Source: Candidatus Manganitrophus noduliformans
GTDB lineage: Bacteria > Nitrospirota > Nitrospiria > SBBL01 > Manganitrophaceae
DNA length: 64,000 bases
Reading direction: 5' to 3'
NCBI RefSeq assembly: GCF_012184425.1
Contig: NZ_VTOW01000003.1
Coordinates: 496,001-560,000 of the forward strand
A program made the position numbers and the translations under genes. The notes beneath the pieces were generated by a model. That model did no database searches. It was not told the origin of the DNA and saw only the letters and a program-made list of their open reading frames with translations. Shown in pieces: positions 38,414 to 45,593 of the stretch (the stretch's first letter is position 1; each line of letters opens with the position of its first letter).

Positions 38414-39622
38414 CTACTGATCGGCGGAGGGAGCGGATGGTCTGCGGTCCGATTTTCTCCGGTTGAATTCGGTTAAATTGACCGGCAGATGGATGGTCAT
38501 GGTCGTTCCTTTTCCGAGTTCCGATCGGACATCGATGCTGCCGCTGTGTTCTTCAATGATATGATGGCACATCATCAGGCCGAGGCCGGTTCCTTCGTTT
38601 TGTTTCGTCGTAAAGAAAGGGTTGAAGAGCTTTTGAAGGTTTTCTTCGGTGATGCCGACGCCGGTGTCTTCAACCGCCACATGGAAGAACGCGTGATGCT
38701 TTTTATCGAAGTCGGCGGACGTTTTTATCCGGATGTAGCCCTCCTGGGTCGCCTGGATGGCATTCAGAAAGATATTTAAAAAAACCTGTCGGATCTTTTC
38801 CCGGTCGACATAACAGAGGGGAAGATCGGGCTCGAAATCCTGCCGAATCGTGAGCCCTTTCTTTTTCGCTTCATTATCAATGAAGGTAATGGTTTCGTAA
38901 AGAAGATCGTTGATATTCACCCCGTTCAATTTCAACCCCTCTTCCTCGGGGGTTTTCGAATAATGAAGAAGCTGGCTGATGAGCATCTGAATCCGATGGG
39001 TTTCGCCCACCGCGACGGCGTAAAACTTATCCCAAAACTCCTCGTCTTTCATTTCTTCGTCATATTTTTTAGGGATCATCTGTAGAAACGTATTAATGGC
39101 GACCAAGGGGTTGTTGATTTCGTGCGCCATGCCGGCCGCCAGGATTCCGATCGCCGTCAGCCGATTCGCTTGAGCCATCTTTTTGAATGTTTCTATTTTT
39201 TCGGCATGAAGACGGTCCCGCTCCTTCACCAGATAGTAGCGCTCGACCCCCTGCTTCAGAGTCTGTTTTAATTCCTCTTCATTGTAGGGTTTGGTGATGT
39301 ATCGGTGCACTTTTCCCCGGTTGATCGCGTCGATCACCAGTTCTATTTCGGTATAAGCGGTGATCAGCATTCGAATGAGGTTGGGCCTCTTCACCGAAAT
39401 ACGCCGGAGCAATTCGATGCCGGTCATGTCCGGCATGCGTTGATCCGAAACGATCAATGCCAACTCGGGATGCCCTTCGATGAACTCGAGCGCGGCCTCA
39501 CCGCTTCCGGCCGTATGGATTGTAAATTCTTTTTTGAAAAGATTTTTGAAGGTGACGAGGGCCATCTCTTCGTCGTCGACAAAGAGAATCGGATAGTCTT
39601 TATATCGGAGCGCTTCCGGCAT
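38414..39622 (-). CDS. Receiver-first hybrid histidine kinase
   Basis: A 402-residue soluble protein with an N-terminal receiver domain (ILFVDDEEMA, phospho-Asp about 60 in LIVSDQRMPDMTG, Lys in YITKPYNEEEL) followed by a short coiled coil and a histidine kinase: H-box AAGMAHEINNPLVAINTFL, N-box FLNIFLNAIQAT, G boxes VEDTGVGI and EGTGLGLMM. Input is therefore by phosphorylation of its own receiver. It overlaps the end of the large sensor kinase gene by 23 bases, so the two act in one relay. No DNA-binding output is present. Confidence 0.94.
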   Translation of the reverse strand: MPEALRYKDYPILFVDDEEMALVTFKNLFKKEFTIHTAGSGEAALEFIEGHPELALIVSDQRMPDMTGIELLRRISVKRPNLIRMLITAYTEIELVIDAINRGKVHRYITKPYNEEELKQTLKQGVERYYLVKERDRLHAEKIETFKKMAQANRLTAIGILAAGMAHEINNPLVAINTFLQMIPKKYDEEMKDEEFWDKFYAVAVGETHRIQMLISQLLHYSKTPEEEGLKLNGVNINDLLYETITFIDNEAKKKGLTIRQDFEPDLPLCYVDREKIRQVFLNIFLNAIQATQEGYIRIKTSADFDKKHHAFFHVAVEDTGVGITEENLQKLFNPFFTTKQNEGTGLGLMMCHHIIEEHSGSIDVRSELGKGTTMTIHLPVNLTEFNRRKSDRRPSAPSADQ

Positions 39623-42600
39623 AGAGCCCTTTCCCCGCTTTTTCCGTCGGGACGCCGGGTTGCGTCAGCGGAAGAGAAATGACCACCTCCGTTCCCGAAC
39701 CGACTTTGCTCTTCACGTCGATCTTTCCGTGGTGGTTTTCGATAATCTTGTAGGTGATGGTCATCCCCAATCCCGTTCCCTTGCCGACCTCTTTGGTGGT
39801 AAAAAACGGATCGAAGACGCGAGGAATGTCCTTCTCGGAAATGCCGGATCCGGTATCCCGGACGGAGATCCGAACGCGCTCCCCTTCCTGCTCCGTTTTG
39901 ATGAAGATCTCTCCTCGATCGGGAATCGACTGAACCGCGTTCTGGAGGACATTCATGAAAGCCTGGTTGATTTGTCCCGGAATCGCCTCCACCGAGGATA
40001 TTCTTCCATATTCCCGGCGGATCGTAATTCGATGGGCGATCTCGTGTTGAAAGAGTTGAAGGGTGGATTCAAGCCCTTCGTGAAGATCGAAGGGCTTCAG
40101 AACCTCTTCATCCTTTCTGACGAACGTTTTTAAGTTTTTAATAATATTCTCGGTGCGGTCGAGCCCGTTCTTGATCACTTGAACGGAGATATCGATATCC
40201 TCGAACAGCTCGGTCATTTCAACGGGACTCAGCCGATCCGCGGCCTTGATCTGTTCCAGGGAGCGCCGGACGATGGCAAGGCTCCCCTTGGCGAAGCTGA
40301 CCGGGTTGTTGATTTCATGGGCCACCCCCGCCACCAAAAGGCCCAAGGCCGCCATTTTCTCCGATTGGACCAACTGGCTCTGCGTTTCCTTGAGCGCTTG
40401 CAGCGTCTCTTCCAATTGATGATTCCGAACCTGAATCTCACGCTCTAACTTTCTGAGGTTGATCAGGGAGCGAACGCGGGCGCGCAGTTCTTGCGAGTTG
40501 AAGGGCTTCGTGAGATAGTCGTCCGCGCCGTGTTCCAACCCTTCTATCTTTGTCGTAATGCCGGTTTTTGCCGTGAGGAGAATGATCGGAATGTGGCAGG
40601 TGCGCGGCTCTTCTTTGATTTCGCGGCAAAGCTGGTGGCCGTCTTTATACGGCATCATCACATCCGAGATCACCAGGTCGGGGATCTCGGATGTGGCCCG
40701 CTCGACCCCTTCTTGTCCATCCTTGGCGAAGAGAAGTTGGTATTCGTCTTTCAATTGCGATGCGATATAACCGAGCATGTTCGGATTGTCTTCGACCAGG
40801 AGGAGGCGATGCCGGCCGTCTGTAAAGTTTGTCTCTTCCGGAAGAGGGGCCGTTTCCTGTACGATGCCTGCCGTGGCGTAATCCGCCTGGGTTTCGAGAG
40901 TTTTCGTCCAATCCTCTTCCCTTCTCTTTTCGGGAACCGAAACGATCTCGGTCCGCCGGTCCAAGGCCCCCGGGACATCTTCCAACCGGGTATAGATGGG
41001 GATGGTGAATAAAAAAGTCGTTCCCCTCCCCTCTTCGCTTTCGGCCCAAATTTTTCCATGATGAAGTTCGACCAGCTCCCGAGAGAGGGCAAGGCCGATG
41101 CCGGTTCCTTCATATTTTCGGCTGGCGGAGCTGTCCGCTTGGGAGAATCTGCTGAAGAGCTTCGGCATATGTTCTTTCGGAATACCGATTCCGCTGTCGG
41201 AGACTTTTACGAGGACATCATTATCCTGCCGTGAACAGGAAACGGTGATCTCCCCTTTTTCGGTGAACTTGAGCGCATTGAATACGAGATTCAGAATGAC
41301 CTTCTCGATTTTATCGGCGTCAAAGAAGAATTCAGGAATCGTTTCTTCGGACGAAAATCGAAGGTCCAACGATTTTTTCTCCGCCATCGGGCTGACGGAG
41401 AAGACCACCTCGTTGACGTACTTCGCAAAGTCTGCTCGATTGTAATAAAGCTCCATCTTGCCGGCGTCCACCTTCGCCAGATCCAGCAGGTTATTGATCA
41501 ACTTTAATAAGCGCAGGGAGTTGGTTTGCATGATCGTGAGATATTTTTCCTGATCTTTGGTGAGCTTGCCTAAGTTTCGGCTCAACATCATTTCGGTGGG
41601 GGCAAGGATGAGCGTAATCGGCGTCCGCAATTCATGACTGATATTGGCGAAGAACTTTGATTTGATTTGATCGAGCTCTTGAAGTTTCTGGTAGGACTCC
41701 TCAAGCTGGCGCTTGCTCTCCGCCAATTCCCGGGTCCGTTCATCTACTTTCCGTTCCAACTCGCCCGCCCATTGTCGAAGCTCCTCCGACATCTTGCTGA
41801 CGTCGTCATAGAGAAGGGAGTTGCTCAGGGCGATGGACGCTTCGGCGCGGAGGTTTGAAAGAAAATCGAGATCCATGTTGGAAAAGGATTTAAGATTGTC
41901 TTTTTCTCCGATGTTCACGATCCCGATGAGCTTTCCGTCATGGATCAGAGGCAACGCGATCTTTGAACGAAACGGCTTAAAATAGGATTGAGCCCATGAA
42001 CGGATCGATTCATATTTCGGATCAAGCTCGATCTCATCCGCTTCAATGACACGATCTTGTTCTTTCATCCATGAGAGAAACGGGTGATCAGGACTAATCT
42101 GTTTTGCCGCTTGGCTTTCCCCTTTTACAATCTTAAATTGTCCGTCTTTATGATCCCATAAGACGAGGGTGATGTTCGAGATGTAAAGCGCATCTTGAAT
42201 CGTGCTTGCAATTTTACCGATTAAACTATCCAGATCCTTCAACGTCGCAAGCTCTTTGACCATTCCTTGAAGGATTTTTTGCATATCGTATTGTCTTCGT
42301 TGGAACCAATGATCTATTCGTGGTTGAATCAATTTAAAATACGGTATGGTGAGGATGAAAAGCCCGGCGACGAAGATCGATAATTGCAGGTTGGATAATC
42401 TATCGATTTGATTTCTTCCGAAGTAAAAGAGAACGCTGATCGGTATAATAATCAGAGAAGAAGTGACGAGCCACATAATCGTTTTGTGAATGACTGTCGA
42501 AATATCCAAAAGGCGATACTGGATGATGGTATAACTGATCACGCCGAAAAGCGCGCCGATCAGAAGATAACCGAAGGGGTAATATTCGAAACCGTAATTG

Positions 42601-43304
42601 GGAATAAAATCGGTGGCGCCGATGACGGCGATCACGAAGGCCCAAAATACGAATTGGATTCGCTTGGCTTCTATTTGAGATTCGTCGAGTTTTTTCTTAT
42701 ATCCCTGGTAGAGATTTAGCAGCCCGCCCGCATAGGTAATGCTGAAAAAAAACAGAAAAATATTTTGAAGGAAACCTGCTCTGACATAATTGCCCCAATA
42801 ATACGCGTATAGCCCATTCAAAAATCGATTACTTGTCAACATTTCTAATATGAAAATCGCGCTGACGGAGTATACCGCTAAAGATCGCTTTCTCTGCCGT
42901 TCTAATCCCAAGAACTCAACGGTGAAATAATAGAATGTCGTCGGAATTAAAAGCACGCCGAAGTATAGAAATTTTGCCCAATACAACCCATGTTCGTAAT
43001 CAGCGGACAAATAAATCATCGCATAACCTGAAAGCCAAATTGCGATAGATAACCATAACGAAGCGAGTGCAATGTTTGCAGGTGAGTTTGAGTTTTTTTG
43101 GAAAATATAGTATCCAAACATGAAATATAAGATTGAAGTGACGATGGGAGGGATGGAGTAGAAATTGATTTTTTCCGAGCTTTGTATCACGAAAAGCGCA
43201 TACATGAAGAAACTGTATACACATAATACAAACCCGGCCCAAAAAGTACTTTTATTTACATGAAGAAGAATATTATTCAGTGGTGCATTAACTTTGTTCA
43301 TCAT
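39600..43304 (-). CDS. Membrane hybrid sensor with 7TM, GAF, kinase, receiver and second kinase
   Basis: A 1234-residue sensor. Residues 20-325 hold about eight membrane helices of the histidine-kinase N-terminal 7TM type; a GAF domain spans about 350-495; a coiled coil leads to a first kinase (NISHELRTPITLI with His557, SDSGIGIPKEHMPKLFSRFSQ, YEGTGIGLALS), then a receiver (LVISDVMMPYKDG) and a second complete kinase (GVAHEINNPVSFAKGS, DTGSGISEKDIPRVFDPFFTTKE). ATG 43304 or the adjacent ATG 43301 is the likely start; longer starts run into the HMG-CoA reductase gene and lack similarity. No ribosome-binding site is visible, so translation is probably coupled to the upstream gene, which it overlaps by about 17 bases. 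Confidence 0.93.
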   Translation of the reverse strand: MMNKVNAPLNNILLHVNKSTFWAGFVLCVYSFFMYALFVIQSSEKINFYSIPPIVTSILYFMFGYYIFQKNSNSPANIALASLWLSIAIWLSGYAMIYLSADYEHGLYWAKFLYFGVLLIPTTFYYFTVEFLGLERQRKRSLAVYSVSAIFILEMLTSNRFLNGLYAYYWGNYVRAGFLQNIFLFFFSITYAGGLLNLYQGYKKKLDESQIEAKRIQFVFWAFVIAVIGATDFIPNYGFEYYPFGYLLIGALFGVISYTIIQYRLLDISTVIHKTIMWLVTSSLIIIPISVLFYFGRNQIDRLSNLQLSIFVAGLFILTIPYFKLIQPRIDHWFQRRQYDMQKILQGMVKELATLKDLDSLIGKIASTIQDALYISNITLVLWDHKDGQFKIVKGESQAAKQISPDHPFLSWMKEQDRVIEADEIELDPKYESIRSWAQSYFKPFRSKIALPLIHDGKLIGIVNIGEKDNLKSFSNMDLDFLSNLRAEASIALSNSLLYDDVSKMSEELRQWAGELERKVDERTRELAESKRQLEESYQKLQELDQIKSKFFANISHELRTPITLILAPTEMMLSRNLGKLTKDQEKYLTIMQTNSLRLLKLINNLLDLAKVDAGKMELYYNRADFAKYVNEVVFSVSPMAEKKSLDLRFSSEETIPEFFFDADKIEKVILNLVFNALKFTEKGEITVSCSRQDNDVLVKVSDSGIGIPKEHMPKLFSRFSQADSSASRKYEGTGIGLALSRELVELHHGKIWAESEEGRGTTFLFTIPIYTRLEDVPGALDRRTEIVSVPEKRREEDWTKTLETQADYATAGIVQETAPLPEETNFTDGRHRLLLVEDNPNMLGYIASQLKDEYQLLFAKDGQEGVERATSEIPDLVISDVMMPYKDGHQLCREIKEEPRTCHIPIILLTAKTGITTKIEGLEHGADDYLTKPFNSQELRARVRSLINLRKLEREIQVRNHQLEETLQALKETQSQLVQSEKMAALGLLVAGVAHEINNPVSFAKGSLAIVRRSLEQIKAADRLSPVEMTELFEDIDISVQVIKNGLDRTENIIKNLKTFVRKDEEVLKPFDLHEGLESTLQLFQHEIAHRITIRREYGRISSVEAIPGQINQAFMNVLQNAVQSIPDRGEIFIKTEQEGERVRISVRDTGSGISEKDIPRVFDPFFTTKEVGKGTGLGMTITYKIIENHHGKIDVKSKVGSGTEVVISLPLTQPGVPTEKAGKGLYAGSAPI

Positions 43305-45018
43305 GACCGTTTGAATGAAGAAGGGCCAGCGATCGATCCACTTGCGGACCGGTTTTTCTTCCATACTTCTTATGACCTTCCACGAAAGTGCCGTTTGCGA
43401 TCCTTGCGCAAATGGCAATCTCTCCTCCCAAGGTTGTCGCCGCAATAATTTCAGCAAACTTCTTTGCGTGTCCGTGACCGAAGCACCCCATCAATTCAAG
43501 GCATTCCCTTTGTGTTCCCAAGCCGACCCCCCCTCCGACCGTGCCGATGACGAGACAAGGCAGCTTGATGCTTGCGTAAAGATCGCCTTTTTCAGTGATC
43601 TCATAGTTGATCACGCTTGCATGCGATTCTACGACACTCGCGACATCTTGGCCGCAAGCCAGAAAGATCGCCGCCAACCCGTTTGCGACGTGGCCGTTCA
43701 TCCCGATCATGGCGGCATGCGTCGTACTCAAAAGGACGAGCCGGAAGTAATCGACCATCGTTTCCGGCCATACATTAAACGTTCTTTTGACGAGCTTTCT
43801 CGGAATGACGCACTCCGCGATGAGCGATTTTCCGTACCCGCTGATAAAGTTATGGGCGGTCACTTTTTTGATCGAGGAATAATTGGATTGAATGAAGAAT
43901 TTAGCGGGTTTTACGATAGAGCTTATGAATTTACAAGCGGCATCCGTGGCAAACGTAACCATATTGACGCCCGATGCGTCCGCGGTAGAATAATAAAATT
44001 TGACTGTTACATTCCGGTCAAAGATAATCGGCTCGATACGGATGAGTTTTCCATGTCGAGTGGTTCCATCCGCGTGCGTTTTAATGCGTTCAAAATTAGC
44101 AAGAAGCCATTTTTTAAAATTGAGCGCTTCGGAGATGTTTTTGAAGGTAAATATAGAGGAGATATGGAGTTCATCTTTCAGTACGGCTGTGTTGACCCCT
44201 CCTGCTAAAGACAGAATTTGCATGCCCTGAGTATAGGTGTAAACCAATGCGCCTTCCGTCGTGGCCATCGGAACGTAGAAGTTTCCTTTCGCGAATTTGC
44301 CATTTATTTTCAGCGGCCCGGCAATACCGATCGGAATTTGAGACACTCCAATAAAGTTTTCGATGTTGCCTTTCATATTTTCCGGGCAGTCGCTGAAAAC
44401 GCTCACGTTTTCCAATTTGACTCCGGTTTTAAGTTCCAACCATTTACGTCTTGCCGCTGCCGTATCATTCGTGTAATTTGCATCTTTTCGGTTGGGGATG
44501 AGATCCAAAGTGGTAATGTCCGATCTTTTTCCGGTGTGGAATAGATCGGTATTTTCCGACTCAATGAGGTCTGTAATTCTTCGAATGATCTTCCGTTTTT
44601 CATCATTTTTAAATGGACGAGAGAGTCCATCTGAATTTCTTTTTCTCCCCTCCTCCTTTTGCCTCCGATCCGGTATCGCTGCATTTGAAGAACCTTTTAC
44701 AAACTCATCCCAACTGTTCAAATCGCCATTCTCTGATTGATAGAACTCTAAACCATAAGCGTGTTTCTGATCGTTCCGCCATTTAATCCGTATTCGGGCT
44801 TTTATCGGATTGAAGGGGTTGGGAAGACTAATTTCGATAACGCCCTTCTCAGTTTGGGGGAGGGCTTTTTCGGTAGAAATTGAAAGTCCTGTCAAACCGA
44901 TATCAAGCGCTTCACCTTTAATCCTTTTCTCTTTCTTCATCTCTCGATCTCGAAAAATGATTGAGATCGGTACAATCTCTTTTGCGCGAAAATAGGAGCG
45001 GCGATCCGGGTGTTTCAT
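43288..45018 (-). CDS. PilZ domain fused to HMG-CoA reductase
   Basis: A 576-residue fusion. Residues 5-95 form a PilZ domain with RSYFR (Arg7 to Arg11) and DIGLTG (39-44), a variant of the c-di-GMP-binding RxxxR and [D/N]xSxxG pattern. Residues about 180-555 are a class I-like HMG-CoA reductase: ENFIGVSQIPIGIAGPL, PMATTEGALV with catalytic Glu255, DASGVNM, SIKK with Lys384, LACGQD with Asp458, GTVGGGVGL, and His549 in FVEGHKK, so the catalytic residues are all kept. HMG-CoA reductase makes mevalonate from HMG-CoA with NAD(P)H. ATG 45018 has GAGG eight bases upstream; ATG 45045 is an alternative. The sensor kinase gene follows with overlap. No other mevalonate-pathway gene is in the window. 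Confidence 0.88.
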   Translation of the reverse strand: MKHPDRRSYFRAKEIVPISIIFRDREMKKEKRIKGEALDIGLTGLSISTEKALPQTEKGVIEISLPNPFNPIKARIRIKWRNDQKHAYGLEFYQSENGDLNSWDEFVKGSSNAAIPDRRQKEEGRKRNSDGLSRPFKNDEKRKIIRRITDLIESENTDLFHTGKRSDITTLDLIPNRKDANYTNDTAAARRKWLELKTGVKLENVSVFSDCPENMKGNIENFIGVSQIPIGIAGPLKINGKFAKGNFYVPMATTEGALVYTYTQGMQILSLAGGVNTAVLKDELHISSIFTFKNISEALNFKKWLLANFERIKTHADGTTRHGKLIRIEPIIFDRNVTVKFYYSTADASGVNMVTFATDAACKFISSIVKPAKFFIQSNYSSIKKVTAHNFISGYGKSLIAECVIPRKLVKRTFNVWPETMVDYFRLVLLSTTHAAMIGMNGHVANGLAAIFLACGQDVASVVESHASVINYEITEKGDLYASIKLPCLVIGTVGGGVGLGTQRECLELMGCFGHGHAKKFAEIIAATTLGGEIAICARIANGTFVEGHKKYGRKTGPQVDRSLALLHSNGHDEQS

Positions 45019-45346
45019 AAAGCTGACCTCATACTTCAATTCCATTTATTGCTTCATCACAAAAAATGGGAATGTTTCATCCCATCGGTTTGCAAAAGGG
45101 CCGTCGTGCACAAGTAGAATATTTTTTATCTGAATGAAATCGGTTTTATCTGTTTCATCTTCATAGAAGAGAAATGAATAAAACATGGAGTGGACAAGTC
45201 CTGAGACATTCAGGAGAAGGAAACAAGGTAGGAAAGGACTACCTACGTGGGTCTGATTCGTTGCCCTTGTTCTTGCTTTGGCAGTCAACCTTAAAGCTCC
45301 AGACAAGGTCGCAAAAACAATCAGATACCGGAGAAAACTATACAAT
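45019..45346 (-). other. Long structured 5' leader of the PilZ-HMG-CoA reductase gene
   Basis: From the predicted start of transcription near 45346 to the ATG at 45018 is about 330 bases of A/T-rich sequence. Two compact hairpins are visible: TCCTGA/TCAGGA (45199-45215) and AGGTAG/CTACCT (45226-45244). A 99-codon open frame (45345-45046, TTG start) runs through it and stops next to the gene, but its product does not look like a protein family I know. No named riboswitch motif was matched. Confidence 0.45.
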
Positions 45347-45352
45347 ATGTTG

Positions 45353-45380
45353 AATATACATTAAAAAAGTCCATTGTCAA
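45353..45380 (-). promoter_or_regulatory. Promoter of the PilZ-HMG-CoA reductase operon
   Basis: On the minus strand TTGACA (45380-45375), a 16-base spacer and TATATT (45358-45353) resemble a housekeeping promoter in A/T-rich DNA. It would drive the reductase and both sensor-kinase genes. Confidence 0.6.
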
Positions 45381-45517: not shown

Positions 45518-45593
45518 TGGTGAGCCGCCTGGGATTCGAACCCAGGACACCCGCCTTAAAAGGGCGGTGCTCTACCAACTGAGCTAGCGGCTC
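45518..45593 (-). tRNA. tRNA-Lys (TTT)
   Basis: A 76-base tRNA with encoded CCA. The acceptor GAGCCGC pairs with GCGGCTC, the D-arm is GCTCAGTTGGTAGAGC, the anticodon loop CTTTTAA holds TTT between CCGCC and GGCGG, and the T-arm CTGGGTTCGAATCCCAG is perfect. Confidence 0.97.

Follow-up and report, generated by a model that had tools for sequence, protein, structure and literature searches.

A PilZ-fused HMG-CoA reductase-like gene is exchanged together with a 7TM kinase sensor in Candidatus Manganitrophus: a candidate signal synthase-receptor locus

In the CqsA/CqsS and LqsA/LqsS systems, a fatty-acyl-derived signal synthase is encoded beside a multi-TM kinase; to our knowledge, neither CqsA nor LqsA carries a PilZ domain. 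The phcB-phcS-phcR-phcQ genes of Ralstonia encode a synthase (the methyltransferase PhcB), a membrane sensor kinase and a soluble receiver and histidine kinase protein, PhcR (PMC8578825). In the ComQXPA pherotype loci of Bacillus, the N-terminal membrane domain of ComP is variable and its cytoplasmic kinase is conserved (PMC4008528). Here we describe a locus of Candidatus Manganitrophus noduliformans that resembles these systems in layout and in pattern of variation, with an enzyme of the HMG-CoA reductase (HMGR) family. The DNA analysed, here called the window, is a stretch of 64,000 nucleotides (contig NZ_VTOW01000003.1), in which the operon comprises:

43288..45018, minus strand: PilZ-HMG-CoA-reductase-like fusion, 576 aa (Pfam PilZ and HMG-CoA_red, orthologues)
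44722..45006, minus strand: PilZ domain of the fusion, residues 5-99, with RSYFR and DIGLTG (Pfam, motif scan)
43357..44460, minus strand: HMGR-like domain of the fusion, residues 187-554, class I (Pfam, alignment to the human and Methanothermococcus enzymes)
39600..43301, minus strand: hybrid histidine kinase with HisKA_7TM, GAF, HisKA-HATPase, receiver and a second kinase module (Pfam)
42501..43145, minus strand: HisKA_7TM sensor domain of the hybrid kinase, allele type A (Pfam PF16927, 4.5e-15)
38414..39622, minus strand: soluble receiver-HisKA-HATPase protein with the domain layout of PhcR (Pfam; PMC8578825)

The reductase gene begins with an ATG at 45018 or 45045 and stops at 43288-43290, giving a protein of 576 or 585 aa. 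Both of its domains were recognised by Pfam, PilZ with E 7.5e-8 (33.1 bits vs a cut-off of 22.5) and HMG-CoA_red with E 2e-111, while the TIGR00533 score of 333.5 bits lies below the NCBIfam cut-off of 441.8. The first PilZ motif is intact (R7SYFR11 in the motif scan), and the second, D39-I-G-L-T-G44, has Gly in place of Ser relative to [DN]xSxxG. This substitution is limited to the Manganitrophus HMGR fusions; the canonical RxxxR and [DN]xSxxG are present in a Nitrospiraceae fusion (genome G326) and in the sister fusions described below. The hybrid kinase of 1233 aa starts at 43301, overlapping the reductase stop, and its gene in turn overlaps the receiver-kinase gene by 23 nt. A small signal-peptide gene was sought between reductase and kinase and none was found, there being no room for one because the genes overlap. 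A search of the operon leader for a c-di-GMP riboswitch gave no Rfam match, and a 99-aa ORF upstream of the fusion is not conserved in genome G003. AlphaFold modelled the fusion too poorly for pocket inspection (pLDDT 54), and that model was not used; the matches of the 7TM model (pLDDT 67) were GPCR-like but weak (E >= 3.5e-3) and were not taken as evidence. A sequence-only reading of this stretch had proposed the fusion, the variant PilZ motif and the two overlapping kinase genes, all of which stand, on a minus strand left unstated there. It also knew of no described PilZ-HMGR, and literature searches for HMGR with PilZ, quorum sensing or histidine kinase gave nothing relevant.

In the order of synthase, membrane sensor kinase and soluble receiver-kinase, the operon is like Phc (PMC8578825; domain layouts compared), but the enzyme in the synthase position is an HMGR-like reductase with PilZ and the kinase is a 7TM hybrid. 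It likewise shares with Cqs and Lqs the placing of an enzyme gene beside a multi-TM kinase, and differs from them in the HMGR family of the enzyme. ComQXPA differs in its pre-peptide gene, which the window locus lacks, and in its enzyme family.

The HMGR-like domain was compared with the class I enzymes of human and Methanothermococcus (PDB 1dq8, 6hr7), whose fold it shares. All four catalytic residues named by the sequence-only reading are kept: E255, K384, D458 and H549 correspond to E559, K691, D767 and H866 of the human enzyme. The nucleotide-site residues D653 and N658 are retained as well. That reading had missed that the HMG-binding residues are gone: R590 is replaced by I, S684 by Q, D690 by I, and K735, which we take from structural work on HMGR to be another HMG contact, by L. 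The HMG moiety is contacted by S684, D690, K691, K692 and R590 (PMC12902076). The substitutions range over R590 to I, S684 to Q or R, D690 to I, and K735 to L, T or A. At the R590 position, every one of the six kinase-linked HMGRs has I or F, and the 12 other HMGRs compared have R or K. Several other bacterial HMGR-like proteins have likewise lost K735 and S684, and the K735-type loss is seen without kinase linkage. The comparison set included distant plasmid HMGRs from Vibrio, Alteromonas, Sinorhizobium and Streptomyces; those with annotated neighbours have no adjoining 7TM kinase.

The fusion is the sole HMGR of the window genome. Searches of this genome and its congeners for HMG-CoA synthase (PF01154) and diphosphomevalonate decarboxylase (TIGR01240) found neither, and the MEP enzyme DXR is present in the window genome, as in 8 of the 9 genomes searched, the ninth being 74% complete. 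Because the synthase and decarboxylase were not found, DXR is present and the HMG-binding residues are lost, the fusion is, judged from gene content and residues, not a mevalonate enzyme. The same observations make c-di-GMP-controlled mevalonate or isoprenoid synthesis, one of two roles offered by the sequence-only reading, highly improbable, for all that the fold is a true HMGR fold with its catalytic tetrad; the genome comparison of mevalonate and MEP genes proposed there came out on the side of MEP. As the HMG-contact residues, R590 above all, are replaced in the kinase-linked HMGRs, we infer that the domain acts as a thioester reductase on a neutral, non-HMG acyl substrate.

Comparison of the locus among Manganitrophus genomes revealed a sharply delimited divergent segment:

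42100..45300, minus strand: exchanged cassette of leader, PilZ-HMGR and 7TM sensor (sliding identity, informative sites, GC)
45353..45380, minus strand: sigma-70-like promoter TTGACA-16-TATATT (consensus scan, 11/12)
45518..45593, minus strand: tRNA-Lys(TTT), 5' of the operon and close to where the exchanged segment ends upstream (ARAGORN, Rfam RF00005)

Between the window and G005, nucleotide identity in sliding windows is 49-64% from about 45.3 to about 42.1 kb and mostly 86-98% in the flanks; between the window and G003 it is mostly 95-98% over the coding part of the cassette. Amino acid identities between the window and G005 follow the same course, at 62% for HMGR, 32% for 7TM, 74% for GAF, 98% for HisKA-HATPase and 95% for the receiver-kinase. 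The 7TM domain of the window (type A) is 86-100% identical to that of G003, 32% to type B and 33% to a type linked to another enzyme (AOS, below). The swap boundary falls within the kinase gene, beyond the 7TM domain, and the output half of the kinase is 91-98% identical in genomes where the block of PilZ-HMGR and 7TM is swapped. In most flanking bins, informative sites favour the pair (G003,G005), typically several-fold. In the cassette core the favoured pair is (window,G003), at a ratio above 20:1 in most bins, and the outgroup G004 often shares the G005 (type B) state there; judged by these sites, the recombination tract reaches outwards to near 46.1 kb. The promoter is common to alleles A and B in an alignment of the window, G003 and G005, and lies just beyond the strongly divergent part. 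Because the tree topology switches at the cassette, PilZ-HMGR and the 7TM sensor have been swapped as one block by recombination, not by fast evolution alone. Enzyme and sensor are therefore a co-inherited, jointly exchanged unit. The window cassette has a GC of 0.43, compared with about 0.58 upstream, and the block is AT-rich in all genomes compared (0.39-0.48 vs 0.57-0.58 upstream).

The enzyme itself is also replaced. At the same syntenic position, G002 encodes PilZ fused to an alpha-oxoamine synthase (AOS) of the BioF/KBL/SPT/CqsA superfamily, with matches to TIGR01825 (2e-124), a quorum-sensing alpha-hydroxyketone synthase model (3.5e-72) and CqsA in the PDB (6e-44), and with the PLP-lysine motif TDSFGKAF kept; this allele is a further point in common with the Cqs and Lqs systems. 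Its 7TM domain is its own, 33% identical to that of the window, while the kinase body is 93% and the receiver-kinase 82% identical. A paralogous locus, locus 2, whose receiver-kinase is 55% identical to that of the window, carries PilZ-CADD/TENA-like, PilZ-acyl-CoA dehydrogenase (ACAD) and PilZ-ALDH fusions in G000, PilZ-FabH with its Cys-His-Asn kept in G003 and G004, and a PilZ-SAM-methyltransferase in G005, the last recalling the methyltransferase PhcB. In the kinase beside the receiver-kinase at locus 2 (G000, G003, G005), the output parts are 93-99% identical and the sensor parts 26-42%. Different PilZ-enzyme fusions thus replace one another at both loci. In a motif scan the AOS, FabH, ACAD and ALDH fusions retained their catalytic residues, and the PDB matches of the sister-fusion enzymes include CAI-1 synthase and a PQS enzyme. 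Signal synthases are known in two of these families, as CqsA/LqsA in the BioF group and as the PqsD/DarB type in the FabH group. The enzymes in the slot mostly act on acyl thioesters or products thereof.

Synthase and sensor domain co-vary and are exchanged while the output is conserved, as in the ComQXPA pherotype loci, where a variable synthase and a variable membrane sensor half accompany a conserved cytoplasmic kinase half; alleles of the window locus differ in that they span unrelated enzyme families. The polymorphism of the locus had escaped the sequence-only reading. Its second suggestion, a reductase repurposed within a signalling module, gains support and is extended by the co-exchange with the kinase sensor and by the replacement of the reductase by other acyl-thioester-family enzymes in relatives.

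The exchange could also be read as horizontal transfer of an accessory island, the enzymes serving pathways for membrane or outer-layer lipids or secondary metabolites that the kinase regulates or monitors. The low GC of the cassette fits this account, as does the occurrence of other Nitrospirota HMGRs among UbiA and PPDK genes in what are probably lipid clusters. What is exchanged, however, is one enzyme gene and half a kinase gene with no pathway genes, the breakpoint lies in the kinase gene past the 7TM domain, and the pattern recurs at the second locus; we regard the account as improbable.

The distribution of the fusion was examined in Nitrospirota genomes and in plasmid and viral records. 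HMGR is rare in Nitrospirota (7 of 396 genomes). Four of the six Ca. Manganitrophus genomes carry the PilZ-HMGR fusion, and so does one Nitrospiraceae genome, G326; among the six congeners, two assemblies are fragmented. Syntenic orthologues of the window gene are 95% identical in G003 and 57% in G004 and G005. No viral relatives were found, the single match in a phage record being a short piece in a Halorubrum virus. The frameshifts in the gene of G003 (GAC4) might suggest an assembly artefact or chance adjacency, to which we give practically no weight: syntenic copies are intact in G000, G004 and G005, G326 has an independent fusion, and HMGR-7TM pairs occur in G144 and G134. The orthologues rule this candidate out, and absence of the fusion from every other genome, which the sequence-only reading had named as the mark of an artefact, is not what was found.

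HMGR is linked to 7TM kinases in four genera, directly adjoining a HisKA_7TM kinase in three besides Manganitrophus (G326, G144, G134). The partner kinase of the G326 fusion has two tandem 7TM units; in G144 and G134, from another family, HMGR has no PilZ domain and the HMGR and kinase genes overlap by 8 nt. The PF16927 domains of G326 (both copies) and G144 occur exclusively in HMGR-linked kinases, and the HMGR-linked kinase of G134 carries the sole such domain above the cut-off. The kinase-linked HMGRs form one clade (support 91/94). The window type A 7TM best matches the second unit of G326 (126 vs 70 bits), and the G005 type B 7TM best matches the first (131 vs 62 bits). Enzyme, membrane sensor kinase and downstream receiver protein are encoded together at the Manganitrophus loci; the pairs of G326, G144 and G134 have no downstream receiver-kinase. 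Elsewhere in the window genome, the gene immediately before one further HisKA_7TM kinase encodes an acyl-ACP-reductase-like protein (TIGR04058 3.6e-22; PDB 6jzq 2.7e-16), and that before another encodes an acyl-CoA thioesterase; two more such kinases (L089, L090) have no such enzyme adjoining.

Enzyme folds are commonly reused as ligand sensors, and the PilZ-enzyme might accordingly be a cytosolic co-sensor that binds an acyl thioester or nucleotide, with c-di-GMP, and contacts the 7TM kinase, with no diffusible product and with the swaps preserving matched protein interfaces. Loss of the HMGR specificity residues would agree with this, as would reductase and kinase genes that overlap and travel together. 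Against it, the HMGR, AOS, FabH, ACAD and ALDH fusions retain their catalytic residues, the swapped part of the kinase is the membrane 7TM region and not the cytosolic kinase domains, and other 7TM kinases adjoin stand-alone acyl enzymes. We consider such a co-sensor unlikely.

The joint swapping of enzyme and kinase sensor suggests that the enzyme makes a chemical signal which the kinase detects. We lean, with modest confidence, towards a signal synthase-receptor-relay operon of the Phc/Cqs/Lqs kind, with an HMGR-type enzyme as the c-di-GMP-gated synthase. In the proposed pathway, the HMGR-like domain would use the conserved chemistry of HMGR to reduce, with NAD(P)H, a thioester of CoA or a carrier that bears an acyl group other than HMG, releasing a small lipophilic product. 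The adjoining hybrid kinase would sense this product through its 7TM domain and relay its output via the receiver-kinase protein, and the product may be used from cell to cell. The N-terminal PilZ domain would bind c-di-GMP and tune production to it; since the HMGRs of G144 and G134 have no PilZ, such control is not essential to the HMGR-kinase pair. Synthase and matching 7TM sensor would move as a specificity cassette, with promoter and kinase output retained, as in pherotype loci.

The acyl-ACP-reductase-like protein and acyl-CoA thioesterase beside other 7TM kinases count for the signal-synthase reading. Counting against it are the Gly for Ser in the c-di-GMP motif of the Manganitrophus HMGRs, the kinases L089 and L090 with no such enzyme adjoining, and the fact that HMGR-like proteins unlinked to kinases have also lost HMG contacts, K735 for example; nor did an exporter or signal-processing gene come to light. 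A wider proposal, which we put forward tentatively as possible but short of probable, is an undescribed family of c-di-GMP-gated autoinducer synthases in which PilZ is joined to one of several interchangeable enzymes of the acyl-thioester type, each paired with a matching 7TM sensor kinase and exchanged as a pherotype cassette, with HMGR turned signal synthase.

If the signal-synthase reading is true, HMG-CoA reductase would join the enzyme families making bacterial signals, c-di-GMP would be physically tied to signal production, and HisKA_7TM, a widespread orphan sensor domain, would gain a ligand source. Nearly identical kinase bodies carry the natural alleles (HMGR A and B, AOS, FabH, acyl-CoA dehydrogenase, methyltransferase), which makes the matching of enzyme, ligand and sensor directly testable. 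For Ca. Manganitrophus, a manganese-oxidising chemolithoautotroph (PMC9040806), the locus would be the first candidate communication system.

At the position syntenic to the PilZ-HMG-CoA reductase (PilZ-HMGR) fusion, the Manganitrophus congener G002 carries a fusion of PilZ to a BioF/KBL/CqsA-family synthase (contig 355, L044:7663-12888), and the 7TM kinase beside it differs from that of the window. In the GAC4 assembly, the PilZ-HMGR and the kinase of the same locus are interrupted by frameshifts (L003, L006, L009 and L010), which may be sequencing errors. PilZ-enzyme fusions were found at a second, paralogous locus, where the partner is a CADD-like, acyl-CoA dehydrogenase, ALDH, FabH-type or SAM-methyltransferase domain:

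L045:4058-18356, L078:3833-14031, L046:154-6441, L047:2575-12108: second polymorphic locus, PilZ-enzyme fusions adjoining hybrid kinases

On a Paraburkholderia plasmid (L083:4440-8815), a relative of the PilZ-fused methyltransferase domain lies immediately 5' of an ATP-binding (kinase-like) protein, followed by two response regulators, a layout resembling the Phc system.

Two other HisKA_7TM kinases in the window's genome (L088:4018-7515 and L086:336-3587) each have a stand-alone acyl enzyme immediately upstream, an acyl-ACP-reductase-like protein and an acyl-CoA thioesterase. A Nitrospiraceae kinase (L019:5692-8610) contains two tandem 7TM sensors, one similar to each Manganitrophus allele type of the cassette.

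HMGRs were observed in other settings. Genome G169 encodes HMGRs (L020, L021) that share roughly 60-65% identity with those of Vibrio; they lie in a gene cluster that also includes a UbiA prenyltransferase, PPDK and further lipid-type genes. An acyl-CoA carboxylase/indolepyruvate ferredoxin oxidoreductase operon on a Sinorhizobium meliloti plasmid (L027:1052-10748) contains an HMGR-like gene, with the HMG-binding Lys and Ser altered in its product. In genome G156 (L024:1361-4063 and L025:1163-4144), HMGR is fused to an APH/ecdysteroid-kinase-like domain and followed by a PPDK_N gene; a mevalonate-like product is possibly made and phosphorylated there.
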